A stretch of DNA of 64,000 nucleotides, taken from Paratrimastix pyriformis. Its lineage: Eukaryota; Preaxostyla; Paratrimastigidae. The notes beneath the pieces were generated by a model. It did not search any database. It was not told where the DNA came from and was given only the letters and a program-made list of their open reading frames with translations. Where the stretch lies: positions 310,001-374,000 of the forward strand of contig JAPMOS010000018.1 in NCBI GenBank assembly GCA_027972325.1. Direction: 5' to 3'. Of this stretch, positions 431 through 64,000 are shown piece after piece; within the stretch, counting starts at the first letter, position 1, and every line of letters starts with the position of its first letter. A program made the translations under genes and the position numbers.

Positions 431-3400
431 GGTTGAGGATGCATACCCCCTGAGCCCCATGCAGGAGGGCATGCTCTTCCACGCTCTCTTCGCGCCCGAC
501 TCGCAGGCCTACCTCCTGCAATCCGTCTTCGAGTTCACGCGAGCGTCCCTCCAAGAGGCCGCCCTAGAGAAGGCATGGGCGGCGGTCATGCGGCGGCACG
601 CTATCCTCCGGACCGGGTTCTGCTGGGAGCACGCGGGCGTCCCACTCCAGTATGTCATGGCCCCGGAGGCCCTTCAGCTCCCCTGGAAGCGGAGTGAACT
701 GTCCGTTTCCGCACCGACCGACCCGGCCGCCGTCCGGGCTGCCATCGATGGCCTCGTGGATGCCGATCGGATGCAGCGGTTCGACCTCCGCCGGGCGCCC
801 CTCTTCCGGCTTCACTTTGTGTCCATCCCCGGGGCGCCTACCTGCTACCTGCTGCTGACGGTTCACCACATGCTGCAGGACGGCTGGTCATTGGGCCTCC
901 TGATGCGCGAGGTGGTTGCTGCTTACTGCGGCCACACCCAGTCTCTGGCGACTCCGGCTGTCCCGTACCGGGCCTACATCGAATGGATCCAGTGCCAGGA
1001 TGCTGCCGCGGGGCGGGACTTCTGGAAGGCCCAGCTGAGCGGGCTCGAGGAGCCCACTCGGCTGGCCGTGGCCTTACCTCGGGCTCCCTTGGTCGGGACA
1101 CCAGTTCGGGCAGGTTACAGCCGGCGGACCCTGGCCGTGGGCCGGCCTCTGACGGCATCGCTGGTGGCCTTGGCCGCGGCACACCACGTCACCATGAGCA
1201 CCGTCATGCAGGCTGCCTGGGCGGTATTGCTTTCTCGGTACACCCGTCAGGAGGAGGTGGTCTATGGGACGACGGTTTCTGGGCGTGGCACAGGCCCGGT
1301 GGGCATCGAGAAGATGGTGGGCCTCTTTATCAACACCCTCCCCGTGCGGGCCTCTGTCCCCGCCCAGGGCACCCTCGCCGAGCTGCTCGCTCAGCTCCAG
1401 CAGCGCATGCTTGCCGCACAGGAGTTTGCCCATGTCCCCCTCGCGCAAATCCAAAGCGCCTGGTCAGGCGCCGCTCCGGAGCCGGGGGCCGCTGCCCGCC
1501 AAAGCACGACGACTTCCCTCTTCGACACGCTCTTCGTCCACGAGAACTACGCCGACTCCTGGGACACCGCGGCGGTGGGGAGTGACTTCCCGCTGCGCAA
1601 GACGTGGGGACTGGAGCAAGACGAGTACCCCCTCAGCCTGACCGTGACCTCGGAGCCCGAGGTGGCGGTGGAGTTCTGCTACCAGAGCGCCCTCTTCGAC
1701 CCGGCCACCGTGGACCGGATGACCTCCCACCTACACGAGATGCTCCGCAACATGGCCCGTGCTTGTTGCGACGAGTCAGGCCAGCCGGCGACTGGCAGCT
1801 CCGTCGCTGTCCGCACCCTCGGCATGCTCACCGGACCCGAGCGGCGTCAGGTGCTGTGGGACTGGAACCAGACGGTCGCCCCGTACCCGCGCGACCTGGG
1901 CATCCACGATCTGGTGCTCGAGTGGTGCCGACAGACCCCCGAGAAGACCGCCCTCGTCTGCGGGTCGGCCCGAATGACTTACGCCCAGCTCGACGCAGCC
2001 TCGGAGCGGGTGGCCCGCACCCTGCAGCAACAATGTGGCGTGGGTCCCGACGTGCTGGTGGCCGTTTGCATGGATCGTTCCATCGAATTCGTGGCTGCCT
2101 TGCTGGGCGTGATCAGGGCGGGTGGGGCGTATGTGCCACTGGACATGGCCTACCCCACCGGCCGCCTGGCGTACATGCTTTCCGACAGTGGGGCCGTCGC
2201 CGTGCTCGTCGACCGCGCAGGGGCTGCCCGCATGACGGAGGTCGCCGCCGAGCGGGACAAGAACGGCGCCCCAACCGCGGCGTCCACGGTACCCGTACTC
2301 CCCTATGAAGATGTTCTCTCGGGCAAGGTGGCGTTGACACCCGCTGCCGGATCGGCCGTGGCGGCTCCCCAAGCTGTCCGGGCACTCCCCGCCAACACGG
2401 GCGAGACTTTGATCTACATCATCTACACGTCCGGGTCGACGGGCCTGCCCAAGGGCGTCCTGGTCGAGCACCGCGGCGTGCTCCGCGAGGTGCGCGGTCG
2501 CCCCTACGTGACTGTCCACCCCGAGGATGTCTTCTCGCTCTTCTCGAGCCTTTCCTTCGATGCGGCCGCGGTGGAGCTGTGGGCTCCCCTTTGCGGTGGC
2601 GCAAGTCTGTTCGAAGTCGGGGTGGTGGGCGCCGGACGGTCGGGTGGATGCGCCGCTCGTTCTTGGGTTGGACAAGGGACTCACTTCTTTCTCCCAATAT
2701 ATCTCCATCGTCTCGTCTGTCGCCGCGTGCAGCTTGCCACATCATCGACTCGGTGGAGATGCGCGACCCACAGCTTCTGTGCGGCGTCCTGAAGAATCGG
2801 GGCATCACCCTGCATTTCGGGACCCCCGTGATGATGTGCGAATGCTTCGCCTACGACCCGTCGGCCTTCGCCAATCTGCGCTGGCTGGCCGTCGGTGGGG
2901 AGGCCTGTCCCATGACCCTCGTCAAGCACTTCGTCTCCATGCCGAAGACCGAATGCATGTCTGTTCCCCTTTTGAACTTCCCCTTTGGTTTGGTCGTTCC
3001 GCGCATTCGCAGCCAATCTGACGGATCTTTCGGCTCTGGTTTGACGTGATGGCGGCAGGAACGCGTACGGCCCCACCGAGAACACCATCGACAGCAGCTT
3101 TTTCGTCGTCAACGAAGCCAGCATGCGGGGCCGGGCGACGGTGCCCATCGGGAGAGCCGTTGGCAATTCCACTTGCTACATCCTCGACCCCCAGGGCCAG
3201 CCCTGCCCAGTGGGGGTGCCCGGCGAGCTGTGGGTGGGCGGCGACGGGGTGGCCCGGGGTTACCACAAGCGCCCCGAGCTGACCGCCGAGCGGTTCCTGC
3301 CGGACCCCTTCATCGCCGAGGCCTGGGGCGCTGCCGCATACCCCACGGAGGTTGATCATCCGTGGCGCATGTACCGCACGGGCGACCTGTGCCGCTGGCT

Positions 3401-6400: not shown

Positions 6401-9400
6401 CTATTTGCTCATTTCGGTGCACCACATCCTCCTCGACGGCTGGTCGGTCTCGCTGCTGCTCCGTGACCTGGAGCTGTGCTACAACAAGCTCCGTACGGGC
6501 CGCGCCGACCTGTCCCCGCCAACGACGCCCTTCAGGCAGTACATCGAATGGCTCCAGCACCAGCCGCTCCAAGAGGGCCTGACCTTCTGGGCCGAGCAGC
6601 TCAAGGGGATCGAAGAGTACACCCTGGTCCAATCGGTGGTCGGCCGGCCCTCGTCGACCGTCCTGGGGGGCCGCGAGACCGTCACCCTGGAGGGTAAGGA
6701 CCTGTTCGGCCAGCAGGATGTGCGGGTTCCTCGCGACCAGACGGCCGCTCTGGTCTCTCTGGCGAAGCGGCTCCAGGTGACCTACAGCACCGTGGTCCAG
6801 TGTGCGCTGGCTGTGGTCCTGGCACGCTACTGCCGCCAAGAAGAAGTGATCTTTGGGACAACCCTCTCCGGTCGCGGCTCAGGACCTGACGGCATCACCG
6901 AGATGGTGGGCCTGTTCATCAACACGGTCCCCATGCGGTACCACGTGGACTCTGAGATGACCATCGAGGGCCTCCTCGCCCAGGCCCAGGCCACCATGGG
7001 CGCCGTCCAGGAGAACACCCATATCTCGCTCGCCCAGATCCAGAACCAGGCCAGCCGTGGGCCGACCAACAGCGCTGGTGGTTCCGCTAGTTCGGGGGCG
7101 TCGGGGGCGTCGACCCTTTTCGACACTCTGCTCGTCTTCGAAAACTACCGGGAAGGTGACGAGGACCAGCCGACCGCCGCGAGCGGCGCGCCGCAGGACG
7201 ACGGCTTCCATCTGAAGGAGGCCACCGCGGCCCGCGAACGAACCGAGTACCCCGTCACCATCGTGGTGGAGCCCCAGGAGGAGCTCATCTTCCACCTGAT
7301 CAACGACCGGCGCCGCATCGACGACGCGGCCTTGCTTGGGCTGGGTTACCATGTCCGGGCCGTGCTTGCCGCCATGGCCACCATGGCCCCCAGCACCCCG
7401 CTGAAGGAAGTCTCCTTGGTTGATGCCGCCGAACGCAAGCGGGTCGTCGCCCAGTGGAACCAAACCGTCACTGCGTACCCCCGCGACGCCACCATAGCGC
7501 AGCTCTTCGAGGAGCAGGTACTGGCCAGTCCCAGCCGCGTGGCCGTCGAGTTCGGCATTCTTCACCTCACCTACGCTCAGCTGGACGCCGAGGCTGGCGG
7601 GCTGGCGATGCGGCTGGCCGAGCTGGGCGTGGGCCCGGAAGTGATGGTGTGCGTCTACATGGAGCGTTCTCTGGAGCAACTCGTTGCCGTTCTGGCGGTC
7701 GTCAAGGTGGGTGGCTGCTATGTGCCCGTTGATCCGGCCTACCCCGAGGCTCGTGTTCGCTTTATGCTCCAGGATACTGCGACTCCTGTGGTCGTGACGC
7801 AGCCTTCGCTGGCTCTCGACCGGAAACTTTCCGAATTCCGTGGCCACGTTGTCGTTTATGGTCGGGGCCCCGAGGCAGACACTGCCTCCTCTCTGGCCTC
7901 GCCAGCCCCCGCGACCCCGACCCCGACCCCGACCCCGGCCCTCGGTGGGCCGCTTCGCTATCTGCGTGATTCGAGCTCGGCCGGGTTGGCTTCCCCAGCC
8001 CCCGTTCGCCCCTCTCTGAAGGCACCCCTCGCGGAGGTAGCCCCGCCCACGGGACGATTCGGCCCTCAGTTGGCCCAGAACGGCTGGGCCTCCACGCAAA
8101 TCTATGAGGGGCTCTTGTTCGGCCCGGGAATGGGCGATACCACCGAGGAAGTGGTCGCCCTGGAGACCGAGCGCCAGCGAGCCCTCCTCCGGCAAGTCCG
8201 CGCCCACGCCACACCCACCGACCTGGCCTACGTCATCTACACGTCGGGCTCGACGGGGCTGCCCAAGGGGTGCCTGGTGCCCCAGCGGGGTGTCGTCCGG
8301 CTGGTCCGGAATACCAACCACGCGCACCTCGAGCCGGGTATGCGCTTCTCGCAGTTCTCGACCCTCAGCTTCGACGCAGCCGTGATGGAAGTGTGGGGCG
8401 CCTGGCTGAACGGAGGCACGCTCTGCTGCATGAGCCGCGAGCAGCTCCTCAACCCACCTCTCTTCTTCCGCTACGTGCGGGACTCCCGCATTTCCGTGCA
8501 GTGGATCACCCCCCCCTTGCTGCAGACCTATCTTGCCGAGGATGCCGCTGCCTTCAAGGGTCCCAAGTACATCCTCTTTGGTGGTGAGGCCTGCCCCACC
8601 ACCTTACCCGCACAGTTGCTCCAGCTGGCTCCCACGATCTCCGGGTCTGTTCCGACTCAGCTTTCCCATTCCCTTCCCTTCCCCCCCTCACCGATTTTCA
8701 CGTGCTCATCGTTCTTCGTTTGTTTTCCCCCTGATCGCAGGAACTGCTATGGTCCCACCGAGAACTGCTGCTACAGCACGGTCTTCTTCCTGTCCGCTCA
8801 AGAATTGGCCGGCTGTGCGACGGTGCCCATTGGCCGCATCATCAGCAACTCGACTGGTTACATTCTCGATTCGACTGGACACCCGTGCCCAGTGGGGGTG
8901 CCCGGGGAGCTGTGGGTGGGTGGCGACGGGGTGGCCCGGGGTTACCACAAGCGCCCCGAGCTGACGACCACCCGATTTGTGCCGGACCCGTTCATCGCCG
9001 AGGCCTGGGGCGTCCAGGCCTCCGCGCTTGCCCCGCCCGGCGGGTGGCGCATGTACCGCACGGGCGACCTGTGCCGGTGGTTGCCCAACGGGTGTGTGGA
9101 GTACCTGTGCCGGCTCGACGAGCAGGTCAAGCTGCGCGGCTTCCGGATTGAGCTGGGCGAGATCGAGGCGGCGCTGACCCGGCTGAGTGGAATCCAGCAG
9201 GCCGTGGCGATGGTGCGCGAGGACCAGCCCGGCCAGAAGCGCCTCGTGGCGTATGTGTCGGGAACAGGGGCGAAAGTCCCCACGGAGGAATTGCGGACCA
9301 GCATCTCGAAGGAGATGCCCGCCTACATGGTGCCCTCGGTCATTGTGCGTCTCGAGGCCATTCCTCTGGCCCCATCCGGCAAGGTGGACCGGAGGGCCCT

Positions 9401-14440: not shown

Positions 14441-14473
<33 letters not shown>

Positions 14474-17400
14474 AGGGCTGCCCAAAGGGTGTCTGGTGCC
14501 CCAGCGGGGTGTGGTTCGCGTGGTCTGCCGCACCAAGTGGATCCAGTGGCTCGCCACCGATCGAGTGGCCCAGTTCACGACGGTGAGTTTTGACGTCTCG
14601 GCCTTCGAGATTTGGGGCGCCTGGTCCCACGGATGCGCCCTGTGCGGCGTCAGCCGCGAGCAGATTCTGACGCCGCCCCTGTTCTTCCGGTTCCTTCGCG
14701 AGGACCGCATCACGGTGCAGTGGGTGACCCCTGTGCTTCTCCAGGCGTACATGGCCGAAGATGAGGATGCCTTCCGCAATCTCCGCGTGCTGGTCTTCGG
14801 TGGCGAGGCATGCCCCTATTCACTGGGGCTCCAACTGGCCCAGTTGCACTCGGTCATTCGAATGTCTGTGGAAGCTCCATGGGGGCGGGGGCGGGGGCGG
14901 GGGCGGGGGGAAGGGGAGAGAGATGGGGGGATGCTAGTGAAATGGCATCATCGCTCACGATCTGGGGTGGTGGCGTGATGGGATGCGCGCAGCAACGGAT
15001 ATGGCCCCACCGAAAACAGTGTTTTCAGCAATTGCTGGGTCATGGATGAAGCGGAGGTACCGAAGTACACCACAGTCCCAATCGGGCCGCCGATTAGCAA
15101 CGCCACCGGCTATGTGCTGGACGGTTATGGCCAACCCTGCCCCATCGGAGTGCTCGGCGAGCTGTGGGTAGGCGGTGATGGTGTGGCCCATGGGTACCAC
15201 AAGCGTCCCGAGCTGACCGCCGAGCGGTTCCTGCCAGACCCGTTCATCGCCGAGGCCTGGGGACCCGAGAAGGCCGCGGCCCTGGCCCCGCCCGGCGGGT
15301 GGCGCATGTACCGCACGGGCGACCTGTGCCGCTGGCTGCCCAACGGGTGCGTGGAGTACCTGGGCCGGCTCGACGGGCAGGTCAAGCTGCGCGGCTTCCG
15401 GATTGAGCTGGGCGAGGTCGAGGCGGCGCTAGCCCGTCAGCCGGACGTGCAGCAGGCTGTGGCAGTGGTGCGCGAGGACCAGCCCGGCCAGAAACGGTTG
15501 GTCTGCTACATCGTTGGCGCGGCGGGAACCCCAGTCGACGAGCTCCGGGCAGGGATGGCGCGAGATTTGCCGCCCTACATGGTGCCGGCTGCCATCGTGC
15601 GCTTGGAGACAATTCCGCTGGGCCCCACGGGCAAGGTGGAGCGGCGCGCCCTGCCGGCCCCTGACTGGGCTCTGCTCGGCGGGGAGAACAAAGATATTCT
15701 GGGCCCGCGGACAGCGCTGGAGAAGCAGCTGGCGGGCCTGTTCGGGGCAGTGCTGGGCGTGGAGGCCGACCGGATCGGGGTGCGGGAGAGCTTCTTTGCG
15801 CTGGGCGGCCACTCGCTGCTGGCCACCCAGCTGGTGTCGCGGCTGCGGCGCGAGTGCGGGGTGGAGGTGGCCCTGCGCCGCGTCTTCGACGCCCCCACGG
15901 TGGAGGCCCTGGCCGCCCACATCGATGAGCTGCGGGCTGCGGCCAGCGCCGCGGCGGCGGCGGCGGCGGCCGCAGGCGGCAGTGACGGGAGCGGCGGCAG
16001 CGGGGTCGCGGGCACTCCTGCGGCTGCTGGGGGCGCGGCCGAGGCGGTGGTGCGGGTGGAGGTGACGCGTCCCCGGCCGGCCCACGTGCCGCTCTCGTTC
16101 GCCCAGCAGCGGATGTGGTTCCTGGACAAGCTGGTGCCCAACAAGGCCCTGTACAACATCTGGCAGGTGGAGCGGCTGGGCGGGGCGCTGGACGTGGAGG
16201 CCCTGGAGGCCGCGGCGGCGGCGCTGGTCGAGCGGCACGAGAGCCTGCGGACGGTCTTCGTGGAGGGGCCCGGGGGCGAGGCCGAGCAGGTGGTGCGGCC
16301 GGCCGGCCACTGGGGCCCGTGGGTGCACCTGGTGGCCCCAGCGGCGGCGACAGCCCCAGAGGCGGCGGCGGCGGCGGCGGCGGCAAAGGCGGCGGCGGCG
16401 GCAAAGGCGGTGGACACTGCGGTGCAGGGCGAGGTGGAGCACACCTTCTCGCTGCAGGAGGGCCCCTTGCTGCGGCTGAGCGTGGTGCGGGTGGGGCCCG
16501 CGGAGGCCCTGCTGGTGGTGTGCATGCACCACATCGTCAGCGACGGCTGGTCGATGGGGATCTTCTGGCGTGAGCTGGGCCAGCTGTACGGCGGGCGCTG
16601 GCCTGCCGGGGGCGGCGGCGGCGGCGACGGCGGCGGGCGGGGCGGCCGGGCCGGGCGAGGTGTTGCAGCGGGCCGGCCTGGGGAGCCCTCCGGATGCAGT
16701 ACCCCGACTATGCGGTCTGGCAGCGGGGCTGGCTGCGGGGCCCCGTGCTGGAGGAGCAGCTGCAGTACTGGCAGCGGGCGCTGGCGGGCATCCCCGAGCT
16801 GCTCGAGCTGCCCACCGACCGGGCCCGCCCCAAGGAGCCCACCTACCGGGGCAACTGGTACGTGCACCCCATGCCGGCCGACCTGCTGGCGGGCATGCGG
16901 CGGCTGGCCGCCCGCCACGGGGCGACCCTTTTCATGGCCGTGCTGGCGGCCTGGCAGCTGCTGCTGCATCGGTACACGGGCCAGGCCGACGTGGTGGTGG
17001 GCACGCCCATCGCGGGGCGGCGCTTCGCCGAGATCGAGGGCCTGGTGGGGTTCTTCGTCAACACGCTGGCCATCCGGACCCAGTTCGAGGACGCCGGCCG
17101 GCAGACCTTCGCCGGCCTGGTGGAGCGGGTGCGCGACGTGACCCTCGAAGCCTACGGCCACCAGGACGTGCCCTTCGAGGCCCTGGTGGAGCACCTCAAG
17201 GTCGAGCGGCACCTCAACGTCAACCCGGTCTTCCAGGTCGTGTTCTCCCACGGGGACGAGTCCCAGCAGCAGATCAACCAGCAGTCGTCTTCATCCACGG
17301 CGAGCGATCCGCTGCCGGGGCTACGCTCGCTGCCGGCTCCCGAGTCGGGGGCCCTGCTCTCGGCCAAGTTCGATCTGACCCTGGCCTCGGCCGTCTCGGC

Positions 17401-20400
17401 CAGCGGGGAGTGGTCTCTGGGTTTTGAGTACGCCGTGGACCTTTTCGACGAGGCCACGGTGGCTCGGATGGGGCACCTCATGGAGGAGCTTGTGCGGAGC
17501 TGCCTGGCCACCGAGGGTGACGCCGCCCCCGCCGTCCCGCTGGCCAGTCTGCGGATGCTGCCCGCGGCCGAGCGGAAGCAGGTCATCGTTCAGTGGAACC
17601 AGACCCTGGCCCCCTACGAGCGGGACACCACCCTGGCGGAGCTCTTCGAGGAGCAGGTGCGCCTCTACCCGGAGGCTGTGGCTCTGGAGCACGGGGCCAC
17701 CCGGCTGACGTACGCTCAGCTGGACGCCGAGGCGGGCGGGCTGGCGGTGCGGCTGGCCGAGCTGGGCGTGGGCCCGGACGTGATGGCGTGCGTCTACATG
17801 GAGCGCTCTCTGGAGCAGCTGGTGGCCATCCTGGCCGTCGTCAAGGCGGGCGGCGCCTACGTCCCTGTTGATCCGGCCTACCCAGAGGTGCGCCTTTCTT
17901 CCCCGTCAGATGGATTTCGTTTGCGTTCCCTTTCAGTTTTTTCCTCTCTGCATTCCCCTTTTTCATCATCAATAATCACCACCCACCACAGTGTCTGCAT
18001 CCCCATCAGGTTTCCGACCGCGCGGACGAAAGCAATTTCAAATGTCACAGAGAAACATCACATCTGCACGTTCCTCTTCATTTTTTCTCTTTTCATCGAT
18101 TATCCTCCATCCCCACTTGGACGTCAGATTGCCCTTCTTGGGTTGCCCTCGTTTTCTTGCCTTCCTGACGAAGCATTGCTGATGGGTCCTTCCCCGGTGT
18201 TGTTCGTGTCTCTGCACTGCGTGTGCGCAGGCCCGGGTGCGGTTCATGCTGGGCGACACCGAGGCGCCCGTGGTCATCACGCAGCTCTCGCTGGTGGCCG
18301 ACCGCAAGCTGGCCGAGTTCGAGGGCCACGTGATCGTGTACAGCCATGCGTCCCTCCCCGCCGCGGCCCTGGGCGCCTCCCAGCCGGAGAGCTGGGCCTC
18401 TGCGCAGCTGTACTCGAGCAGCCCCCTGGTGGCGGGCGAGGACCTCTCGGCCCGGCGGGCCGCCGACACGGCCACGCTGCGTGGCGGTGCCCGCACCCGG
18501 GCCAAGGCCACCGACCTGGCTTACGTCATCTACACCTCGGGCTCGACGGGCCTGCCCAAGGGCTGCGTGATCGAGCAGCGCAGCGTGGTGCGCCTGGTGC
18601 GGCACACCAACTACGTGCCCATCCAGCCCGGAATGCGCTTCTCGCAGTTTTCGACGGTCAGCTTCGATGCGGCGACTTTGGAGCTGTGGGGCGCCTGGCT
18701 CAACGGGGGTACGCTATGCCCCCTCTCCCGGGAGCAGATCCTGACGCCTTCGCTGTACTTCCGCTACCTGCGCGAGTCCCACCCCGACGTGCTCTGGATC
18801 ACACCGCTCCTGCTGCAGGCCTACCTGGCCGAAGACCCCGAGGCCTTCAAGTCGGTCAAATATCTCCTCTTTGGTGGCGAAGCCTGCCCCACGGGCCTGC
18901 TTGACCAGCTCTTCAAGCTGGCCCCCGTCCTGCCCATGTCTGTCCCCACTCTCCTCCTCCTTCGTGTGTCTTCTTCTGGTGTTTGAGTCTTCCTGAGTTT
19001 GCGAGAAGAGGACCGGGGTCAGTCGGCTGCCGGGGGCGTGGGATGCCCTGACGTGTTGCGAGGTTTCTCAGTATCGTCGTTTCCTCTTCATTCCCCTGGC
19101 ACTTTCGAACAGCAACGGCTACGGGCCCACGGAAAACACCACCTTCAGCACGGCCTTCGGGATTCGTGGCGACGACCCGCTGTTCGCCCACGGGACCCCG
19201 CAGTCGGTCCCCATCGGGCCGATGATTGCCAACTCGACGGGTTACATCCTCGACCCCCAGGGCCAGCCCTGCCCAGTGGGGGTGCCCGGGGAGCTGTGGG
19301 TGGGCGGCGACGGGGTGGCTCGGGTTACCACAAGCGCCCCGAGCTGACGACCACCCGATTTGCGCCGGACCCGTTCATCGCCGAGGCCTGGGGACCCGAG
19401 AAGGCCGCGGCCCTGGCCCCGCCCGGCGGGTGGCGCATGTACCGCACGGGCGACCTGTGCCGCTGGCTGCCCAACGGCAACGGGTGCGTGGAGTGTCTGG
19501 GCCGGCTCGACGGGCAGGTCAAGCTGCGCGGCTTCCGGATTGAGCTGGGCGAGGTCGAGGCGGCGCTGACCCGGCTGAGCGGAATCCAGCAGGCCGTGGC
19601 GATGGTGCGCGAGGACCAGCCCGGCCAGAAGCGCCTCGTGGCGTACGTGGTGGCGGCGGCCGGGGGGCTGCCCCGAGCGCGGGCGACCTGCGGAGCAGCC
19701 TGGCCCGGGAGCTGCCGCCCTACATGGTGCCGGCGGCCATCGTGGCACTGGCGGCGATGCCGCTGGGCCCCACGGGCAAGGTCGACCGGCGCGCCCTGCC
19801 GGCCCCTGACTGGGCCGCAGCGGGCGGCGAGGGGACCGAGTTTGTGGGCCCGCGGACAGCGCTGGAGAAGCAGCTGGCGGGCCTGTTCGGGGCAGTGCTG
19901 GGCGTGGAGGCCGACCGGATCGGGGTGCGGGAGAGCTTCTTTGCGCTGGGCGGCCACTCGCTGCTGGCCACCCAGCTGGTGTCGCGGCTGCGGCGCGAGT
20001 GCGGGGTGGAGGTGGCCCTGCGCCGCGTCTTCGACGCCCCCACGGTGGAGGCCCTGGCCGCCCACATCGATGAGCTGCGGGCTGCGGCCAGCGCCGCGGC
20101 GGCGGCGGCGGCGGCCGCAGGCGGCAGTGACGGGAGCGGCGGCAGCGGGGTCGCGGGCACTCCTGCGGCTGCTGGGGGCGCGGCCGAGGCGGTGGTGCGG
20201 GTGGAGGTGACGCGTCCCCGGCCGGCCCACGTGCCGCTCTCGTTCGCCCAGCAGCGGATGTGGTTCCTGGACAAGCTGGTGCCCAACAAGGCCCTGTACA
20301 ACATCTGGCAGGTGGAGCGGCTGGGCGGGGCGCTGGACGTGGAGGCCCTGGAGGCCGCGGCGGCGGCGCTGGTCGAGCGGCACGAGAGCCTGCGGACGGT

Positions 20401-35500: not shown

Positions 35501-36637
35501 GGGAGCAGCACCGCGAGGGTCCGATTCCCACCCACCCACCCACCCACCCACCCACCGCCCGACCACCCGGCCGTCGTGCCTGAGGGAAGCCCGCGCCTCC
35601 CGACTGACGGCCCGCTCCCGCCACCCGGCCGCCCTGCCCACGCGCAGTGCGACTGCAGATGCCCTTCCAGCCCGGGGCGACGCCCGAGGTCGACCTGCGC
35701 CGCTTCATGGGTCCGCCCCTGCCACCCGCCCCCGCCCCTGCCACCCGCCCCCGCCCCTCACTCCGGCCTGCCTGCTGGTCTGCTGACCTGCTTCTCTGTT
35801 GGCATCCTCTCGGCGCGCCCCACCCTGGGCCGGGGCAGCTTGCACGAGCGCGGGGCTGATCTTCCAGCGGCGCCAGCAGGCCCAGCTGGCGGACAGCTTC
35901 ATCGACGTGGAGTTCGCCGACCGGCAGATGAAACCCATCCACTTCCTCGACAACTACGGCTTCACCATGGCCGCCTCGGTCCGCCCCCGCCCCGCCCACC
36001 CCCACCCCCCCACCCATAACCACAGCCCCATGCCGCGCCGCCCACCTTCCACGACGCCTCGTGGCTGCGGTTGGCGAGGGGAGGTGCCGACCCTGGCGCT
36101 CAACCGGGGTGCTGATGCTGGGGACGGCCGGTGCTTGTTGTGTGTGTTGGTGTGGGTCCAGGCCCCAACGCGGCCTGTTCTACTCGGAGGGCAACCGGGT
36201 GCTGTGGTGCCGGCCCTTCGACTCGTGGGCCAGCGGGGCCGAGTGGCGCCTGGCCCTGAGCCCCGACGAGCCCGTCCTCGGTCGGCCCGCGGCCCCGCGG
36301 CCCCCCAACCCCCCCCCCCCCCCAGCACACTCACGCGCCCCTCCTCCTCTGCCCGCCCGCCGGGCTCCTCTGTGGATGGGCGGGGCGGCGCAGCGCTGGC
36401 CATGGGCCCGAGCTTCGGGGCTGTCGCCACGGGGCGGGGCTTCGTGCGGATCCTCTCGTACACCGGCCTCCAACGCATGGTCCCTCGCACCCGCCCGCCG
36501 CCCGCCCCGCCCCGCCCCGCCCGCGCAACCTGGTCGCCCTTGCAGCCTGGCTGCCTCGAGTCGCCTGGCGGGCAGCGGCTCATCCCTTGCGGTGTGCTTG
36601 TCCACTGGGCTGCTGCTGATGCTGCTGGTGCTGCTGC

Positions 36638-36671
<34 letters not shown>

Positions 36672-39980: not shown

Positions 39981-42900
39981 TCACGTCCCCACCGCGCCAT
40001 GGGCGAGTCGGCCGAGACCGTCGGCCACAACACGACACGACACGGGGAGCGAAGCGACTCTTGGCGGTTGCCCCGACGGGCAGGGCAGGGGCGGACCGGA
40101 TGGGCACAGACAGACACGCGAGTCCCAAAGAGGACACAAAAGGCAAGAGAACGGGCCGGCTCGCCCCTTGGCCGAGTCGAGAAAATACAACAAAGCGAAC
40201 CAGCCAACCAGCGAACCAGCGAACCAGCGAACCAGCGAACCAGCGAATCGGGAGGGAGGAGAAGGCCCAGGAAGAAAGGCGAGGCGCCTGATGTGGGTGG
40301 GGGTGGACCCAGAGGACCCAGCGGGCCCAGGGGGGGCTCGCAGCTGTTGCTGCAAGAGGGCCACCTGGCGCTGCAGCAGCACAACCCGCTGGGCGTCGCT
40401 GAGGGCCGGGTCGTCTGCACACGCAGCCCGGGACGGCCGTGGGGCAAGGATGACCGACCAGTAGGGGGATGATGGATGAGGAGGGTGCAGGGCAGGGCAG
40501 GGCAGGGCAGGGCAGGGCAGGGCAGGGCAGGGCAGGGCAGGGCAGGGCAGGGCAGGGCAGGGCAGGGCAGGGCAGGGCAGGGCAGGGCAGGGCAGGGCAG
40601 GGCAGGGCAAAATGACAGGGCGGGTGGGTGGGGGCTCGGAGGGCATGCCGACCAAGCCGGGGCGCGCCCTCGCCGTCGGCCTTGCGCTGGGCGGGTGGCT
40701 GGGCCCTGGGTTGGGCCTGGGCCTCGCGGGGGGCGGCGGGGGTGGCGTCGATGGCGTCGAACTCATCGAAGGGGTCCGGCTCGGGGGGCCCGGCCGACGG
40801 GGCAGGGGCCGGCCCCGGGCGGAGGGCCGACAGGGAAAGCGGCATGGTCATGGTGGGCCGGAGGGCGGCCCCGGCCTGGGTCAGCTCGGCCATGGTCAAC
40901 AGGCGCGGACCGCCCCGCTTGGCGGCCGCCGGGGCGGCGCCTCCACCGCTGGGGGCGGGGACAGGGACGGCGGGCGCGGGGAGGAGCACCGCCGCCTGCG
41001 AGCGGCCGCCCTGGGGTGGCTCGTAGGGCGGGTCCTCTTCCAGCTCGTCCAAGGCCCCGGCCCCCAGCACCGGCCCGCCGGCCAGGCCCACGGGGGCCCC
41101 GGGAGCTGGCTGCCAGGCGGCGCGTGGTGGCTGGGCGGAGGCCGAGGGGGCGGGGGCCGGCGAGTCGACGGGCAGGTCGTCGAGCTCGTCCAGGGCCCCA
41201 GGCGGCAGCGTCGGCAGGGGGCCCCGGATGGGGGTCGCCCAGACGTCGCCCGACTGCGACTGCGACTGGGGCGGTAGCGCGGTGCCCCGGCGGCCAGCGG
41301 CCGAGGTGGGAGTCGCGTTGGGGTGGAGGGAAGGGAGCAGGGGCGGGTTGGAGTTTGGGCCGACGTTGATGTTGGTGGCGTTGGTGTTGGCGGGGGCAAG
41401 CCGGGGCGCGGTGGGGCCTGGGGGCGTCGGGGTCTGGATGGGGCCGGGGGCGGGGGCGGAGGAGGAGGCGGAGGAGGAAGAGGAGGAAGAGGAGGAGGTG
41501 GGGGAAGGGAGGCCCGTCTTGGCGGGGGCCCCGTGGGGCGGGGTGGACGCGAGGACGCCGCTGCTGGTGAACTGGAAGCTGGGGTTGGGGGCGAACTGGG
41601 ACCGGATGCGCCGCTGCACCTCCTCCACGAAGTACGGGTCCCACGGGTGCCGCACCAGGCGCCCGTACAGGTCGTCGGGCACCCGGTGCGCCTGCGGGGG
41701 GTGGGCGTGGGGCCGATGGGGCGGTGGGCGTGGGGCCGATGGAAGCAGAGGCAGAGGCAGAGGCAGAGGCAGAGGCAGAGGCAGAGGCAGAGGGCGGGGT
41801 TGCTGCGGACCAGGCTGATGGCCGTGGTGATGATCCGCTTGGCGTCCAGGGGCAGGTTGTGCAGGATGGGCAGCGGGCTGCCCGAGGGGCGACGCGCACA
41901 CACGCAGCCGAATGGAGGACAGAAGTCAACCCCCGCCCGGGATGGCCTCCCTCCCCCTCCCCCCACCCCCCCTCCCCCTCCCCCCCTCCCCTCCCCTCCC
42001 CCTCCCCCTCCCCCCTCCCCCTCCCCCCTCCCCTCCCCCCTCCCCCCCCCTCCCCCTCCCCCTCCCCCCTCCCTCCCCCTCCCCCCTCCCCCCCCCCCCT
42101 CCCCCTCCCCCCTCCCCCCTCCCCTCCCTCCTCCCCTCCCCTCCCTCTCCCCCCCCCCCCCCCCCCGCGTGCGCGACAGGGGGAGTGAAGTGGGCGAATG
42201 GGGGCGGGTGTCGTGCGGGGCAGACTTCTTCTCGGAGATGAGCTCCGCTGGCCGACGTACTGGGCGGCCGCGCAGAGACGGCCATGTGGGTCCCGGCGGC
42301 CAGGAAGTCCCAGATCTTGAGCAGCTCCCGATGGGCGGCGAGCAGCCCAGGAAGGTCATCACCGCTGCGCCGCCAAGGCCACCGGGGCAGGGCGGGTGTT
42401 TGGAGGGGAGGGAGAATGGGCGTGAGGAGGACGAGGAGGGAGGAGGGAGGAGGCGGACAGGAAAGCGAGATCTGGCCGTTGAGGCCCTTAGATGCAAGGT
42501 ACGCGAAGAGCTGCGGGTCGCAGTGATGCAGCACCTCGTCCAACAGCTGCGCAGCATTGACGGGGCACGTCAGGCGGCAGCGGAGCCAAAGGGTGAGTGG
42601 TCCGGGCCCCACCTCACATCCCCACCCAACCCCCCCCACCCACCCCCCACCACCACCACCACCATTGCCGCCACGTGTCACACACCAAGGCGGCGCGGCG
42701 GGCTGGGAGCAGACCGCCACCCCGGCGTGGACGCCCTCGAGCATGGGGTAGACGTAGTTGGGGCAGTGGCGCAGCAGCATCCGGCGGAAGCAGAAGAACG
42801 CGTCCACCTCGGGCATCACGTAGATGAAGGGCGCCGCCAGCACCGACATCCCCTGCACGTAGCCCAGGTTCTTGTTCGTCTCTGGGGGGTGCCGTGATGA

Positions 42901-43460
42901 GGTGGCGGGGAAGGGGGAAGGGGGGAGGATGGCATCAGGGGGGATGGAAACCCGCCGAGGGGTTGGTCCCAGGCGGAAGGGTGGTCATGAGGGGCACGAA
43001 CCGACGGAGTGCACGAAGGCATTGAGGAGCCGCACCAGGCGCACCTCGGGGACGCCCTGCTTGAACTGGATGTCGTCGTGGAAGGTACGGAACGTGTCGT
43101 CGCGGATGACTTCGTAAGGCGCGCTGTGCTTTTTCTTAACCAACGACCAATAATATGTAGTGTCGATTGCCGGAATACGAAGTAACACCTGCAACCAGAA
43201 GGGTGGCGTATAGGGTGGTGTGGCGGCGCAAACCTTCCAAACCCGGCCGCGAAGACCGTCCGTCCGATCATTTTCAACCTGAAAGAGGTTCAAAAATCGG
43301 AGTAAGCGCGCGTACAGACCCCGTCTTCCTCTGGGAGCCCCTGAGTGAGGATTAGATGTCGGATTTTTTGAAGGGCGGCTTCTTGCCTCTCTTCCTGCGT
43401 CACGCCGGTAATTTCGGGGCTGCTCAAATCGAGAAGAGCCTCGAAATCCGAGAATGACAT
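39981..43460 (-). CDS. BUB2: Bub2/Cdc16-type TBC-domain GTPase-activating protein
   Basis: Bub2 (Cdc16 in fission yeast) is the GAP for the small GTPase that controls mitotic exit/septation signalling at spindle poles. The protein starts MSFSDFEALLD. It has the family start IRHLILTQGLP, the arginine finger in IRDDTFR, the glutamine finger in YVQGM, then YVYPMLEGVHAG, DPQLFAYLASKGL and VPDDLYGRLVRHPWDPY. Introns on this strand are 43279-43319, 42882-43001, 42547-42714, 42365-42458, 41878-42225, 41692-41820 and 40415-40652. The C-terminal third is longer than in yeast, low in complexity, with three acidic Asp-Glu-Leu/Phe-Asp motifs. A short leucine/glutamine helix follows, and the exact stop is uncertain. 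In the exon 42226-42364 homology changes frame three times by one missing base each and returns to the first frame. Confidence 0.85.
40203..40250. repeat. 8-bp GAACCAGC tandem repeat
   Basis: About six units lie in the last exon or 3' region of the BUB2-like gene. All three frames stay open through it, which is one reason why the stop codon is uncertain. Confidence 0.75.
40487..40610. repeat. CAGGG pentanucleotide array in a BUB2-like intron
   Basis: More than 20 perfect copies of GGGCA/CAGGG occur in a row, inside intron 40415-40652. This is not a telomere repeat type that I recognize. Confidence 0.92.
41748..41796. repeat. GGCAGA hexanucleotide repeat in a BUB2-like intron
   Basis: About seven or eight copies lie inside intron 41692-41820. 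Confidence 0.88.
41945..42166. repeat. CCCCTC-rich polypyrimidine tract in a BUB2-like intron
   Basis: About 220 bp are almost purely C and T on the + strand (purine on the sense strand), ending in a C18 run, within intron 41878-42225. Confidence 0.9.
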
Positions 43461-43558: not shown

Positions 43559-45349
43559 ATGGAGCCCACTGAAAAACCACACCCACCAGATTCATCAAGT
43601 GATCCTTATAAGGAGGACGACTCACAAGAAGAGTCAGATCTTGAGACGGCAACCGCACGAGCCGAACTTGCGAGGGCAGAAGCTGAACTCGGTGGGAAAC
43701 CACTCCCCACCGATGCTGAGGTGAACCCGATTTCTTTACTTGAAAAGAGCCTGCGCCAAAACGCAGTCGCAGAAAATCTCGAACAGAACGCCCCGCAGCC
43801 CATCCCAGCACCCACTAACCCCGCCGACGATGAAAGGTTCTCGACAGCTCGTAAGTATGGCGGGCTTAAGGCCGATGACCCAGTTCTGATGCGGTATCAA
43901 CGTGGGTTTGTTTTGTTTTTTGATTGATGCTTCATGCGGCATTCTCCAGTCTTGTCTTTTCCTTGATCAAGCAGGCAGGTGTCAACGTCATGCAAGGGAA
44001 AAATTTGTTGAACGTTTCTCTCCCCGTTCGGATCATGGAACCACGATCGTATCTCCTTCGGATCACTGTCTGCGCACCTGTTTTTACGCGGGCGCTCATG
44101 GCTGGGTGGATAGGAGGCCTTCTCGTACATTGGATTCCTCCATCGCGCCGCTGGTCTGTCTGCTCTCTGGCTCACGCTCGACCCTCGGTCCTTCCAGCGA
44201 CCACCGACCCGCTGGAACGCATGAAGAATTGCATTGCATTCGTCATGGCCGGGATGCACCCAACTCTGCTCCAGGCCAAGCCCTTCAATCCGAGTCCGGC
44301 CACTTTCCATGCCCACATTGATGTTTTGTAGTCCTTGGCGAGACCCTCCAGGCCACATATGCCGATGGGACACAAATCTGGATGGAACAGGTGACACACC
44401 ACCCGCCTGTCTCCGCCTGGCTCGTCCGTGACGCAGCCAAGACATTCGAGTTTGTGGGGTGGGGTGAATACGAGGCCAAATTCCGGGGGAATGCCATCAA
44501 AGCGTCTGCCCTACCCTTCCGTGACGCACAACTGTTAACCTTTTTTTTTTTTTTAGGCACCAAAAAGGCCCTCAATCGGTCAAATTTGCTGATGGGACCA
44601 CCCTTTACTGGCTCTGGCCCGGGCTCAGGATTCACGGCCTGGTGTACGGCGAACGCATCTCCGAATACATTGGCAAGGTGGAGTTCCACTATCCGGCTCA
44701 TAACCTCCAGTCTGTGGTTGGATTTCTTTCCCGCTCCACGCTGGTCTTTTTCCATCGTAGCGCCGAATTGACCTTCGAGACCGAGAACCGCGGCATCATC
44801 CATTCGGTGACGAGCTTCTTCTCCCGCTCGAAGCGGACCGCTCGCCCTGTTGATTTTTTCTCGGGCGACATTTTCCGGCAGCAGTGGCAGGGCCAGTTGC
44901 CTGTGCGAGGATCCCCACGAGAGCGTCTGGCCAGTGTGGACGGGACATGGCTGGCGTACCTCGATATCGACGGCCGGCGCTATTGGGATATTCGCACCTC
45001 CAAGCCCTATGTGCCTCGCCCAGTCGAAAATCCGTTGCCCTCCGATTCACGGTTCCGGACGGACATGACCGAATTAGCCGCGGGTCGCTTGGACTCGGCC
45101 CAGTCGGAAAAGGTGCGCCTGGAGGAGAAGCAGCGGCACGAGGCCAAACTCCGGAAACAAGGGTATGCAAGTTCGGCCCCTGCCACCCCCCCTGTGGCTT
45201 CTGATGGCGCTTCCGCCACCGCCACCGCCACCGCCACCGCCACGACTGCCGCTCCCTCCGAGTCAACGGAGCCCACGGACATGGCCCCTCCCGAGGCGCA
45301 TCCAATCCCCACCTCCCGCAGCACCCCAGATCTCCCGGCCAGCGAATAA
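43559..45349 (+). CDS. Oxysterol-binding-protein-related lipid transfer protein (ORP/Osh)
   Basis: ORPs move sterols or phosphoinositides between membranes at contact sites. The family signature EQVTHHPPVS is at about 44380. Before it are RIMEPRSYL, DPLERM and, across an intron, PFNP-ILGET. After it come the WLWPGLRIHGLVYGE region and the typical C-terminal helix LPSDSRFRTDMTELAAGRLD. The N-terminal exon (about 95 residues) is acidic and low in complexity, and no PH domain or ankyrin repeats are seen, so this is a short ORP. Introns 44294-44331 (38 nt, the shortest seen) and 44504-44556 are exact. The first intron starts at 43851 (GTAAGT) or 43855 (GTATGG), and one near 44068-44197 is likely but its phase does not fit as given. 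The protein ends in a Ser/Thr/Ala-rich tail. Confidence 0.9.
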
Positions 45350-48212: not shown

Positions 48213-49118
48213 ATGGAGCTCATCCAGACGCCTCCGCCTGCTTTTTTACCTGTTCAACATCGTTCGCCAACAGAAACAGCATCAACTCCTTCAGGCCCGG
48301 CATGTCGAATTTGTATGATGACAAGGAGGTCCGTCGTCTTTTGTTGTCACCGAGGGGAACAAATTTGGGTAGTGAGACTCCAAATTTGCATTTGATACGA
48401 TCTCCATGTTCCTGCCGTGGGACACTCACACCAGTTCACTTGGAATGCTTGGAGGAATGGATCAGAGCTCGTTCTGGGACTTCATTTCGGGGAAGTACTC
48501 TCACTTGCGAACTCTGCCACACCCCATATAACTTACGTTGGTCGTACCCTCCAATATGGAGGTGGAGATGCCCCCAACCCAAGTCTGTTCTTCCGGTGGG
48601 TCTTTGCGGGCCACCATTACCACTCTCACCTCCACCCCCCAGCAGGGAACAGTTGGTTCTCCTCGTCATGCTTCTGCCGATGGTGGTTATTGTGACTGTA
48701 TTGTCAGCGTACGTACTGCCCCGCACTGTGGAAGCCTATAACCAGATCAAGAATCCCCGCTCTGGGATGCTGTTTTCCCTCGTCATCTTCCTCACCCTCT
48801 TCGGACTTTGTTGTGGGATCATGTTGATGAAAGCCGCGTTCCTCCTCACCTGGATGTTTTGGAGGTGGCGGGTGAGGTCTGCAGGATGCCAACCTCATAT
48901 GCCCAGCCTTTGGTAGTAATCTCCAACTTGTCGTTCCCTTCGATCCCATCACGCCCGAACCGCCAACGAACACTTCGAGGGACATCATCGAGTCAGCTGT
49001 GACGTCACCGAACCGTCCGATTTCAGATGACAAATCCGAAGCCAACGACCGACGGCCAGCACCAGCAACACCCCGGTTGCCAGATTCGGTCTTGGATCCG
49101 GCGTTACGGGGGCTGTGA
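48213..49118 (+). CDS. RING-CH (MARCH-like) membrane E3 ubiquitin ligase
   Basis: MARCH-type ligases ubiquitinate membrane proteins. Splicing out 48329-48372 (GTCCGT...GGTAG, 44 nt) gives a complete RING-CH finger: C31-x2-C34-x16-C51-x-C53-x7-H61-x2-C64-x19-C84-x2-C87, with CRICMM at its start and VHLECLEEW in the middle. Two hydrophobic stretches follow (LVLLVMLLPMVVIVTVLSAY, and a longer one with FSLVIFLTLFGLCCGIMLM), so both ends should face the cytosol. A second small intron, 48877-48916 (GTCTGC...GGTAG, 40 nt), is proposed because it opens a polar 67-codon tail ending in TGA at 49116. Without it the protein stops shortly after 48900. The ATG at 48213 is the first in frame. Confidence 0.85.
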
Positions 49119-49121
49119 GTG

Positions 49122-50016
49122 TTATCGTGAGGATGCTGACGGCGGAGAGCACCTCTGAAAGAGCAAAATATACGCGGGACGGCTAAACACAGCCTGCGTC
49201 GAAACAGGCGTGACGGAATCGTCGTCGTAATGGAACCACCCGTCACCTGGCGAAGGGCAGTTGGGACAAAACGGAAATGCGGCAGGCGGACCGTCACGGC
49301 GAAGAACGTCACACGTGTAGTGACCATTGCCCATATGCTGGCCGAGGTGCGTGATGACTAGGAGGAAAAACGCCCACAATCATGCAGAGGTGGCATCCCT
49401 GATAAACAGACCTGCCATGAGGCGATACCAGCACGGCTTGGGCGTTGGCCTGAGGAGCATGCCGGCAGGAATCTCGAGGTACGGGCCGTAGGAGACGGGC
49501 TTGGCCAGCCTGTCGAGGAGGAGGTTGGATGAGGGGGCGCCCGATGGGCGGGGGCGGACTTTAGGGGCCCGTGGGGCCCGTAGACAAAGCGCTTGAGGTG
49601 GATGACCAGCAAGGGCGGCAGCCGATCGAGCGACATCTGCTTCGAGGCGTGCACCTGTGGTGCCGGCCCATGGAAGTCATGATCACAGGTCTGTTGGGGC
49701 AGGCTGGTGTGAATTGGGGGTGAATCAGACCTCGGCGAGGTGTTCGCGGCGGATGAGGCCCCAGAGGGCGTCTTCGAGGCGCTGCACCTGGGGGTCGGCG
49801 ATGTCCAGCGAGAGACTGTGGAAGGGCTCCACGGTCGTGCGGCCCCGGGCCCCCTCGCGCCGCAGGTTGGAGCGCAGGGTCCCCCCGAAGAGTAGGCTGA
49901 CAGGCGAGACGGCCTGCTTCGTCTGCAAGCACAGCACCCGCGTCACGAGCAACACCCGCAACAGCGAGTATCAGCAATGAGCATCGGGTACCAGTCATGT
50001 CGCCGAGCCCCCATGC

Positions 50017-50048
<32 letters not shown>

Positions 50049-51357
50049 GAGGAGGAGGAGGAGGAGGAGGAGGAGGAGGAGGAGGAGGAGGAGGAGGAGG
50101 AGGAGGAGGAGGAGGAGGAGGAGGAGGAGGGAGGAGGAGGGGAGGGAGGGAGGAGGAGGAGGAGGAGGAGGAGGAGGAGGAGGAGGAGGAGGAGGGAGGA
50201 GGAGGGAGGAGGGAGGGCGACGCGAGTCGTGCCGACTGACCACCGCAAGGCCGCCTCCTGACCGCCCTGCCCACCTCGACCCACTCGTCGTCCTGGGCTG
50301 GGCCGCCCCTGCCTGCTCGAATGGGTTGCGGATCCCCAGGCCTGGACCAGGGCCGCCAGGTCGTCGTGCATCTGGCCCAGGGCGAACTCGAGGAACTCGT
50401 GCGCGTCCTCCTGCGGGCCCGCCACAAGACGCTGCAGCTCGGCCGCTGCGATGGCCGGGTGGTAGAGGTACCCGGGACGGGCCGCGGCTGCGCCCGCGGG
50501 GGGGGGGGGGGGGGGGGGGGGAAGAACCGGATGAGCGGTCGTGGGAGGCAAAGGGCAAGGGCCAGCAGCGGGCATGGAGGGCAGTGGGCCGGACCCCGAA
50601 CGGAGCGGAAGTGGGCCAGCAGCGGGTAGAACATGACGGGGGACATGGGTCCGACGTTTCCCGTGGGAGGCCGGGCCGTCGCCCCGCGGGCCGTCCGGGC
50701 TGCAGGGCCACTAGCAACGGGCGGATGGGCAGAAGTCTGCGTGTCGCGGAGCAGCTCGGCCCAGGCGCGCAGCGAGGGCGACCGGTCCATGAGGAGGGCC
50801 GAACCGCTCAGCTTGTGCAAGGCGGCGCCGAAGCGGGGGGCCCCGATGAGGCTTTGCAGGACCTGGGCGTGGAACGGGGCCATGATGCGCGACGACCGAT
50901 GGGAGGGGGCAAGGAGGGGCCGCGGGGGGAGGGCCGCGAGACGGACGACGTTCATGAAGCAGTAGTTGCCCCGGTTGACCAGCCCGCGCGGTTGGGTGAC
51001 CGGCAAGTCGGGGCTGCCGAGGTCGTCCGGGGGCAGTTGCATCGCCTGCTCGATCAGCTCTGCGAAGACGGCAGATGGGGCGCGACAGATGACATGAGGG
51101 AAGGATAGGCCCATGAGAGGTGGTGGAGGGACAACAGACGGCGGCTGGTGGGATCAGCGGGTGGAACCCCGGGAGCCGGCGGCTGGCCACCCGGTGCATG
51201 CAGTGCAGGCGCAGCAGAAGAAGCCGAGCCCACTGCCGACGGAGGCTGCGAGGGCTCCTGATGGGCCTTTGCCAGGAACTAAGGAGGGGTAGCAGGAGAA
51301 ATCAGGGAGATCACGGGAAGTGGCGGACCTTCGACCATGACATCTTTGGCGCCGGGC

Positions 51358-52179: not shown

Positions 52180-57533
<5,354 letters not shown>

Positions 57534-59671: not shown

Positions 59672-59709
<38 letters not shown>

Positions 59710-60641: not shown

Positions 60642-60673
<32 letters not shown>

Positions 60674-63600: not shown

Positions 63601-64000
63601 ACCGCATCGAGGCCCTCCAGGCCGCCCTGCAGGCCGCCCGGCAGGAGCTCGACGCCCAGCGGGTCAGCGGCCCACTGCCCCCATGCCCACGTCCACGCCC
63701 ACGCCCACACCCCGCCCCGCCCCACCCCGCCCCGCCTCAATGACGACCTTGATCCCTTTGGGCAACCCACCCACCCGCCCGCCGGCATGGCTTGCGTGGC
63801 GCAGCTGCGGGCGGAGCAGCTGAACGGCGAGAAGGCGGCCATGGCGGCCTCCCTGCAGACCAGCACCGAGAGCCTCGCCGAGACCACCCGCCACCTCGAC
63901 CAGCACCTCGTCCGCCACACGCCCCCGGCCCCGCCACCGCCATCACCACCCACCCATGGGAGTCGCGCCCTTGCGCATTGCGCAGCCTCATGGCGATCTT
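57639..64000 (+). CDS. Large alanine-rich coiled-coil protein, 3' end outside window
   Basis: The first exon (57639-58250) codes a Pro/Ser/Thr-rich N-terminus. From about 58160 on, nearly every exon codes Ala/Glu/Gln/Arg/Leu heptads without proline, for example LELRIQLLKDECEALKQD, LLRMDRKHRKEMADIGETYK and LAAQWEAQAAQHRQQC. Exons of 60-300 nt alternate with short C-rich introns whose donors are GTCTGG (58251), GTTCGC (58547), GTCCGC (58856), GTCCGG (59118), GTCCGT (59652 and 60361), GTCGGC (61055), GTCCGC (62226) and GTCAGC (63664). Exact joins 58251-58409 and 58547-58678 preserve the heptads. More than 1000 residues are present and the protein continues. It could be a golgin, centrosomal or motor-tail protein. 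No diagnostic GRIP, motor or other domain is seen in the window. Confidence 0.75.
58335..58360 (+). repeat. C26 run in a coiled-coil-gene intron (one of about 20 long C/G runs)
   Basis: Runs of 13-30 identical C or G bases occur at 31838-31866, 34401-34421, 36309-36322, 38743-38760, 39748-39765, 42149-42166, 45552-45567, 50498-50521, 52946-52961, 53485-53507, 54030-54043, 54859-54872, 55626-55638, 56254-56272, 58335-58360, 58880-58904, 59136-59161, 60644-60673 and 61415-61438. All but possibly 34401-34421 (an unresolved part of CTF4) are in introns or spacers. Confidence 0.9.
60366..60452 (+). repeat. TCCATCCTGTCCATCCTA tandem repeat in a coiled-coil-gene intron
   Basis: About nine copies of a 9-bp unit TCCATCCT(G/A) directly follow a GTCCGT donor. 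Confidence 0.88.
62270..62332 (+). repeat. CCCTCG hexanucleotide repeat in a coiled-coil-gene intron
   Basis: About ten copies lie inside the intron that begins with GTCCGC at 62226. Confidence 0.9.

Follow-up and report, generated by a model that had tools for sequence, protein, structure and literature searches.

The main intron donor (5′ splice site) of Paratrimastix pyriformis, a free-living flagellate of the Preaxostyla, is GTCYGY (Y, C or T), and all full genes found for its U1 small nuclear RNA (snRNA) start with AUACAGACCU instead of the canonical AUACUUACCU. The two very probably changed together, and the altered U1 should, by prediction, form Watson-Crick pairs with the new donor. 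The donor had been noticed in the letters of one stretch of 64,000 nucleotides (nt) from a single contig (positions 310001-374000 of C90; hereafter the window), which we analyzed together with the whole assembly (56.06 Mb in 495 contigs). The GTC donor pattern is real and extends beyond the window. Few RNA stretches of eukaryotes are as well conserved as the U1 5′ end.

The ends of 27 introns could be fixed by four routes: the annotated model of VPS16 (16 introns), a protein motif in a nonribosomal peptide synthetase (NRPS) gene (6), a structure alignment of a tryptophanase-like gene (2), and a homologue profile of a TGS1-like gene (3). As the original prediction had held for fixed introns, their donors were almost always GTC (26 of 27; 21 were GTCYGY), and none was GTRAGT (R, A or G). 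The third intron base (+3) was C in 26 and +5 was G in 25, while +4 was T in 12, C in 12, and G in 3, and +6 was C in 14, T in 11, and G in 2. Donors near GTRAGT were found in 0 of the 27 fixed introns and in 1 of 539 predicted ones. GTRAGT donors a few bases away from the proposed sites, named at the outset as what would overturn the prediction, did not appear.

Of 7 proteins matched by the draft VPS16 read from the window, the best was “putative vacuolar protein sorting-associated protein 16 [Paratrimastix pyriformis],” and this annotated protein (873 residues) lay on the window in 17 exons with zero mismatches. All 16 junctions had a GT-AG solution, 15 with GTC and 1 with GTGGGT in low-complexity sequence. 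Among the frame-open GT-AG cuts at most 15 bases away, the annotated donor was the best or tied in 16 of 16 junctions and the sole such cut in 5. The gene models of this species come from Augustus, for which curated models served as new training data and RNA sequencing (RNA-seq) supplied intron hints, and from PASA/EVM (PMC10703272; this and the other PubMed Central [PMC] papers are cited for the passages concerned). As a set, they are therefore informed by RNA. Exhaustive scoring of the junctions without demanding GT-AG ends was rejected: it does not resolve exact cuts (it ranked the annotated cut first in 2 of 16 VPS16 junctions), and we therefore relied solely on how GT-AG cuts compared with one another.

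All six NRPS junctions also had a GT-AG cut, with the introns ending directly before the motif NxYGPTE of the adenylation domain (A-domain) and the donors GTCTGT (5) and GTCTGC (1); these introns occupy the same position in repeated modules and are mutually nonindependent. The other two genes lie on another contig (C441), and their models were made by a trained hidden Markov model (HMM), the homology test coming afterwards. Alignment of the tryptophanase-like protein with the solved tryptophanase 8sl7 gave two gap-free junctions (GTCTGT and GTCCGC), and a profile of 10 homologues resolved three junctions in the TGS1-like gene (GTCCGC, GTCTGG, and GTCTGT), each of them the best GT-AG cut and at most 3 bits from the best free cut. 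The remaining junctions were dropped before the count of 27. These were two of the four in the tryptophanase-like gene (GTTTGG at an alignment gap and GTCCGC beyond the gap) and six of the nine in the TGS1-like gene: the first three, left unscored; GTCTGT and GTGGCT, which were the best GT-AG cuts yet about 9 bits below the best free cut; and GTTCGT, beaten by other GT-AG cuts. With the dropped junctions put back, GTC was found in 31 of 35.

The motif was also learned from a larger sample. For this we trained a two-strand gene HMM on the window plus 20 pieces of 10 kb, half of them taken from contig C441 and half from C112, 264 kb in all; two of the pieces had 2,500 masked bases. With only GT and AG fixed, a flat start and a GTRAGT start reached the same motif, GTC-Y-G-Y, with C at +3 in 79 to 80%, C or T at +4, G at +5 in 58%, C or T at +6, and C before the final AG in 74 to 75%. 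In a neutral decode, in which the donor had no preference beyond GT, 539 introns were predicted: 359 began with GTC, 152 (28%) with GTCYGY, 1 with GTRAGT, and 32 with something other than GT. When every GT on the two strands of this sample was counted (25,257 sites), GTC and GTCYGY accounted for 33% and 3.6%, respectively. This decode is not fully blind, since its coding and transition values were inherited from the run that had learned the GTC motif, and the decoded sample holds false introns (the 5th percentile of intron length is 28 nt). GTC donors were present in each of the 27 sample blocks, in block 10001-20000 in only 1 of 8 calls. The original prediction had given GTCTGT and GTCCGC as the usual forms; over the 264 kb, GTCCGC was the commonest hexamer (80/539) and GTCTGT reached only 18/539. 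As for the branch site, CTNAY was found 4 to 45 nt from the 3′ end in 70 of 187 introns versus 40.0 in shuffles, and CTRAY in only 24 versus 16.9.

It had further been proposed that U1 might carry changes matching the donor, and this proved to be so in every full-length U1 gene found. We found eight whole-model Rfam matches to U1 in the 56-Mb assembly (model positions 1-166; 50.8 to 60.2 bits; best E value, 3.7e−13), and all eight begin with AUACAGACCU (longer start, ATACAGACCTTGC). Their 5′ end is ACAGACC and not ACUUACC, with A-G in place of the canonical UU at positions 5 and 6, which face +4 and +3 of the donor. Positions 1-58 are identical across the eight genes, and one copy is predicted to fold into a four-stem cloverleaf (z = −3.35). 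A pattern search of the assembly for the canonical U1 start with up to 3 mismatches returned the same eight genes only, with 2 mismatches each (0 in the backward control), and a DNA search of the assembly found no further full U1, only a 32-nt 3′ fragment. The sequence AATTC stands directly upstream of the start in 8/8 U1 and 6/9 U2 genes, and a CCCATAA box lies about 60 bases upstream in 8/8 U1, 8/9 U2, and 7/7 U5 genes (23/24). By this placement the U1 5′ end, as predicted from the genes, is well positioned. Most U1, U2, and U5 genes also have a CTTCAAG-like element about 30 bases upstream, and the U6 genes show a related TTTTTCCGA stretch in 2/4 and a TTATAAGG- or TTTATCAGG-like box in 4/4.

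The U1 5′ end is exactly complementary to AG/GTCTGTAT (the slash marks the splice junction). In the antiparallel register, U1 positions 8, 7, 6, 5, 4, and 3 (C, A, G, A, C, and A) stand opposite +1 to +6 (G, U, C, U, G, and U). Among the 27 fixed donors, the species' own U1 would form a Watson-Crick pair at +3 in 26 and at +4 in 12, while the canonical U1 would form neither in any of the 27, which agrees with the initial argument that the known U1 5′ end cannot pair there. The predicted duplex is stronger with the own U1 than with the canonical one on 26 of 27 fixed donors (mean, −6.88 versus −2.40 kcal/mol), and for the 539 predicted introns the own U1 was better in 379 and the canonical in 85, with 75 ties. 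When the 16 possible letter pairs at U1 positions 5 and 6 were ranked, the actual AG came second and the canonical UU last. In the 215 predicted GTCNG introns, T makes up 24% at +4 and 29% at +6 versus 11 to 15% at +7 to +10, as expected if A5 and A3 of U1 favor T. In the 152 GTCYGY donors, local GC is lower around T at +4 than around C (mean, 0.639 versus 0.681; P = 0.0005).

Several observations weigh against a joint change of donor and U1. All eight U1 scores are under the Rfam gathering score of 69.5. The bare U1 fold, predicted for one copy, pairs bases 4 to 8 with GUUUG near the presumed Sm site, so that a free 5′ end needs the small nuclear ribonucleoprotein. A hypothetical U1 with G5 outscores the real A5 (mean Watson-Crick pairs, 4.97 versus 4.65; −9.11 versus −6.88 kcal/mol), because C at +4 is as frequent as T in the fixed introns (12 and 12 of 27) and prevails in the sample. 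C is frequent at both +4 and +6, where it faces A in U1 as well as in U6 and is left unpaired by A5 and A3; given this mismatch at +4, the case rests mainly on +3. The GC trend at +6 was not significant (P = 0.28 and 0.13). An HMM with neither GT nor AG fixed ran off into C-rich sequence from all three starts, also in a two-round trial, and was discarded. Finally, loss of METTL16 or SNRNP27 was considered as a cause of the donor shift and found unsupported: domains of both families are present, each by a partial match, and loss therefore does not explain the shift. The PF05971 domain (model positions 166-272 of 299, with the NPPF motif) also matches bacterial controls, leaving METTL16 identity itself unproven; the SNRNP27 stretch covers model positions 19-47 of 56. 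U1-C was not found, which is not evidence of absence; the sole zf-U1 match is another protein, presumably WBP4 (FBP21).

The other snRNAs kept their recognition sequences. Four U6 genes were found, each with GATACAGAGAAG and an intact ACAGAGA box; U2 has nine full genes with the canonical GUAGUA and one partial match; and the seven U5 genes carry the loop CGCCUUUUACU. Comparison of U1 and U6 with the donor motif, proposed as a check at the start, thus gave an altered, matching U1 end and an unaltered U6 box. As had been pointed out, the ACAGA of U6 complements UCUGU at +2 to +6. U6 has the same complement and the same pairing counts on the 27 fixed donors as U1, because both share AUACAGA, and the two could therefore read the same intron bases. 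The two options first offered, a shift toward U6 and a change in U1, are thus compatible. The inferred picture is one of joint change in a great many introns and in the multicopy U1 genes, with U6 remaining constant.

In the proposed mechanism, G6 of U1 would pair with C at +3 and C4 with G at +5, and A5 and A3 would pair with +4 and +6 where these are U. At hand-over, the ACAGA of U6 would pair with the same bases, +2 to +6, using the same letters. The strongly selected C+3 and G+5 would form G-C pairs in the cell, with U1 first and with U6 later. The history may have begun with an ancestor having GTATGT-like donors, as in Streblomastix, that already fitted U6 at +4 to +6. Donors would then have gained C at +3, U1 would have gone from UU to AG with spread to all copies, and GC pressure would have converted many U at +4, and perhaps at +6, to C. 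The simplest reading of C at +4 and +6 is weak selection under GC pressure. We think it probable that this amounts to a rewritten donor code, in which U1 lost its pseudouridine pair and its first seven bases came to repeat the U6 ACAGA box (AUACAGA). The initial recognition step, by U1, and the catalytic one, by U6, would then use identical letters on the same intron bases. If so, the demands that U1 and U6 usually make on +3 and +4 would no longer conflict, and this would be the first natural case in which U1 and the introns of a whole genome underwent compensatory change.

U6 alone might instead drive donor choice. Donors would then have drifted to fit ACAGA, as has been suggested in Entamoeba, and the altered U1 would be a passenger or U1 would be dispensable. 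The complement of ACAGA to UCUGU, intact in 4/4 U6 genes found, fits this, as does Entamoeba itself, where donors are GUUUGU, U1 has not been found, and U6 has been put forward as a candidate activator (PMC6018208, PMC6085484, and PMC13292270). It is nevertheless unlikely here, since eight near-identical full-length U1 genes are retained with upstream signals common to U2 and U5, and the two altered U1 bases restore pairing at the two altered donor positions. The abundance of GTCCGC could also be taken as a sign that A5 and A3 of U1 are modified (e.g., to inosine), reading Y at +4 and +6 with a preference for C, GTCCGC being then the intended partner; it is the commonest hexamer (80/539), and unmodified A pairs with U only. 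Such a modification seems to us quite improbable, as C at +4 tracks local GC and is explained by mutation pressure. It is about as improbable that a second class of U1 with another 5′ end serves the GTCCGC introns: of 992 first-look candidates, 41 were scored with the covariance model, which leaves room for one, but the DNA and pattern searches of the assembly gave no further full U1 body.

Composition could mimic the pattern if C-rich introns made GTC no more than GT plus background and the gene calls were wrong. C does make up 53 to 62% at +7 to +10 in the 215 predicted GTCNG introns, and both the false introns of the HMM sample and the behavior of the free HMM point the same way. However, C at +3 reaches 70 to 79% versus 48 to 54% at +7 to +9, G at +5 reaches 49 to 60% versus 17 to 22% there, and GTCYGY makes up 28% of neutral calls versus 3.6% of all GT. 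Moreover, the annotated, motif-fixed, and homology-fixed introns are concordant, and U1 is altered at exactly the two matching bases, all of which makes such an artifact barely credible.

A minor spliceosome is possible but unproven. A U12 candidate on the minus strand of contig C432 (103343-103517; L052) scored 44.9 bits against a cut-off of 53, with a well-kept 5′ and branch-site region. The U11 search of the assembly gave no match, and neither did its controls, hence this is no sign of absence. U12-type donors (RTATCC) are recognized by U11, and GTCYGY does not fit them.

The fixed introns of the window and further proposed donors are collected in Table 1. Of the 26 donors listed in the original prediction, 25 have GTC exactly at the coordinate given (GTCTGT 14, GTCTGC 4, GTCCGC 4, GTCCGT 2, and GTCCGG 1), while position 41820 on the minus strand reads CATCAG. 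The introns had been described as independently fixed by frame and homology. In this analysis 7 of 26 were fixed independently (2959, 8645, 14864, 18938, 23523, and 27324 in NRPS and 57388 in VPS16), and the other 19 were checked as letters only; an HMM decode with the trained motif, which is not independent, picks 5 of these 19 exactly (32948, 33248, 38047, 49559, and 50946). The draft protein from the window for the gene called CTF4 had no homologue at E ≤ 0.001, and this name is unconfirmed.

Table 1. Introns and donor sites in the window (slash, exon-intron boundary)
Feature	Coordinates	Strand	Donor	Basis or remark
VPS16 intron 1	57334..57388	-	GTCTGT	exact mapping of annotated protein
VPS16 intron 2	57068..57173	-	GTCTGC	exact mapping of annotated protein
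VPS16 intron 3	56881..57003	-	GTCCGC	exact mapping of annotated protein
VPS16 intron 4	56481..56625	-	GTCCGC	exact mapping of annotated protein
VPS16 intron 5	56250..56393	-	GTCCGG	exact mapping of annotated protein
VPS16 intron 6	55820..56055	-	GTCCGC	exact mapping of annotated protein
VPS16 intron 7	55623..55731	-	GTCCCC	exact mapping of annotated protein
VPS16 intron 8	55014..55415	-	GTCGGC	exact mapping of annotated protein
VPS16 intron 9	54800..54906	-	GTCCGT	exact mapping of annotated protein
VPS16 intron 10	54402..54519	-	GTCCGC	exact mapping of annotated protein
VPS16 intron 11	54018..54064	-	GTGGGT	low-complexity, doubtful model; sole non-GTC among 16
VPS16 intron 12	53743..53841	-	GTCCGC	exact mapping of annotated protein
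VPS16 intron 13	53593..53685	-	GTCCGC	exact mapping of annotated protein
VPS16 intron 14	53429..53511	-	GTCGCC	exact mapping of annotated protein
VPS16 intron 15	53111..53269	-	GTCCGC	exact mapping of annotated protein
VPS16 intron 16	52920..52997	-	GTCTGT	exact mapping of annotated protein
NRPS intron	2959..3058	+	GTCTGT	AT/GTCTGT...CAG/G; cut restores frame and A-domain motif NAYGPTE
NRPS intron	8645..8740	+	GTCTGT	GG/GTCTGT...CAG/G; before NCYGPTE
NRPS intron	14864..14992	+	GTCTGT	AT/GTCTGT...CAG/C; before NGYGPTE
NRPS intron	18938..19112	+	GTCTGT	AT/GTCTGT...CAG/C; before NGYGPTE
NRPS intron	23523..23698	+	GTCTGT	AT/GTCTGT...CAG/C; duplicate of 18938 intron
NRPS intron	27324..27371	+	GTCTGC	AT/GTCTGC...TAG/G; before NIYGPTE
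CTF4 (name from original prediction), six donors	32750..39473	+	GTCYGY (all)	32750, 32948, 33248, 35107, 38047, 39468; letters only
BUB2-like, five donors	41805..43319	-		four exact; 41820 actually at 41810 (GTCCGC); letters only
ORP, two donors	44294..44509	+	GTCCGG, GTCTGC	letters only
RING-CH donor	48329..48334	+	GTCCGT	letters only
USP10-like, three donors	49406..50946	-	50946 GTCCGT, 49559 GTCCGC, 49411 GTCTGT	letters; 50946 and 49559 also HMM decode

The long NRPS gene region (1-32200) includes an open frame at 3045-14978 (3977 amino acids, read straight through) with 7 condensation and 3 AMP-binding stretches, and its introns at 18938 and 23523 show 1 difference in their first 160 bases. 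Minisatellite and triplet repeats are frequent in introns and neighboring sequence (52000-57500 in the window; L036, L044, and L045), e.g., a GGGRWAV-type unit adjoining VPS16 exons; such repeats were read as protein by the HMM gene decode. ARAGORN called a tRNA-Thr (tgt) on the minus strand at 38196-38288, opposite the gene called CTF4, which is probably spurious because Rfam has no match in the window. The tryptophanase-like gene (Beta_elim_lyase; L031:3911-5658, minus strand) contains GTC introns. Tryptophanase is an enzyme known chiefly from bacteria, and if the gene was acquired by transfer, these introns were gained or adapted later.

Software for gene finding or RNA-seq alignment that expects GTRAGT would misread the P. 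pyriformis genome. With GTATG donors retained in the related oxymonads, the probable joint change of U1 and donor makes it testable in this lineage whether U1 or U6 sets donor evolution. In open PMC text, no report on P. pyriformis donors or U1 was among the matches listed, subscription papers and supplements being outside this scope; the main text of the genome paper has “intron” twice and “splic” once, neither on donors, and “snRNA” is absent from it (PMC10703272).

Compared with canonical U2-type introns (U1 AUACUUACCU and GTRAGT), P. pyriformis has the same GT-AG ends, mostly CAG acceptors, the U1 cloverleaf, and canonical U2, U5, and U6 recognition sequences; it differs by C at +3 and Y at +4 of the donor and by A-G for U-U at U1 positions 5 and 6, which are pseudouridines in man and yeast (PMC3510501). 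The GUAUGU-like donors of yeast, Giardia, and Streblomastix likewise fit U6 with U at +4 and G at +5, and P. pyriformis differs from them by C at +3 and the altered U1. Donors of the oxymonad Streblomastix have A, U, and G at +3 to +5, the oxymonads being related to Trimastix (PMC1501061), and in Giardia UAUGUU was paired with an ordinary ACUUAC U1, leaving one U-U pair (PMC3510501). The Guillardia nucleomorph kept an ACUUAC U1 with GUAAGU donors (PMC6461891; two nucleomorph genomes looked at), and the non-GT/AG introns of larvaceans accompany changes in U2AF and N6-methyladenosine (PMC13326754). In Saccharomycotina, U1 ACUUACC is invariant wherever U1 was found (227/230 genomes and 9/10 outgroups), and the authors considered that a U1 change from pseudouridine 5 to A might compensate but did not find one (PMC10581693). 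The +4 A/U switches of that group are also a lineage-wide donor shift, but with U1 unchanged. In the diplonemid S. specki, one variant U1 containing a run of C accompanies a canonical one (PMC12621601). This too is a natural U1 gene with an altered 5′ end, whereas in P. pyriformis all eight full copies found are altered. In the laboratory, a suppressor U1 made by Zhuang and Weiner in 1986 (cited in PMC11732430) reportedly restored pairing with an altered donor through a compensatory base change, at a single mutated site.

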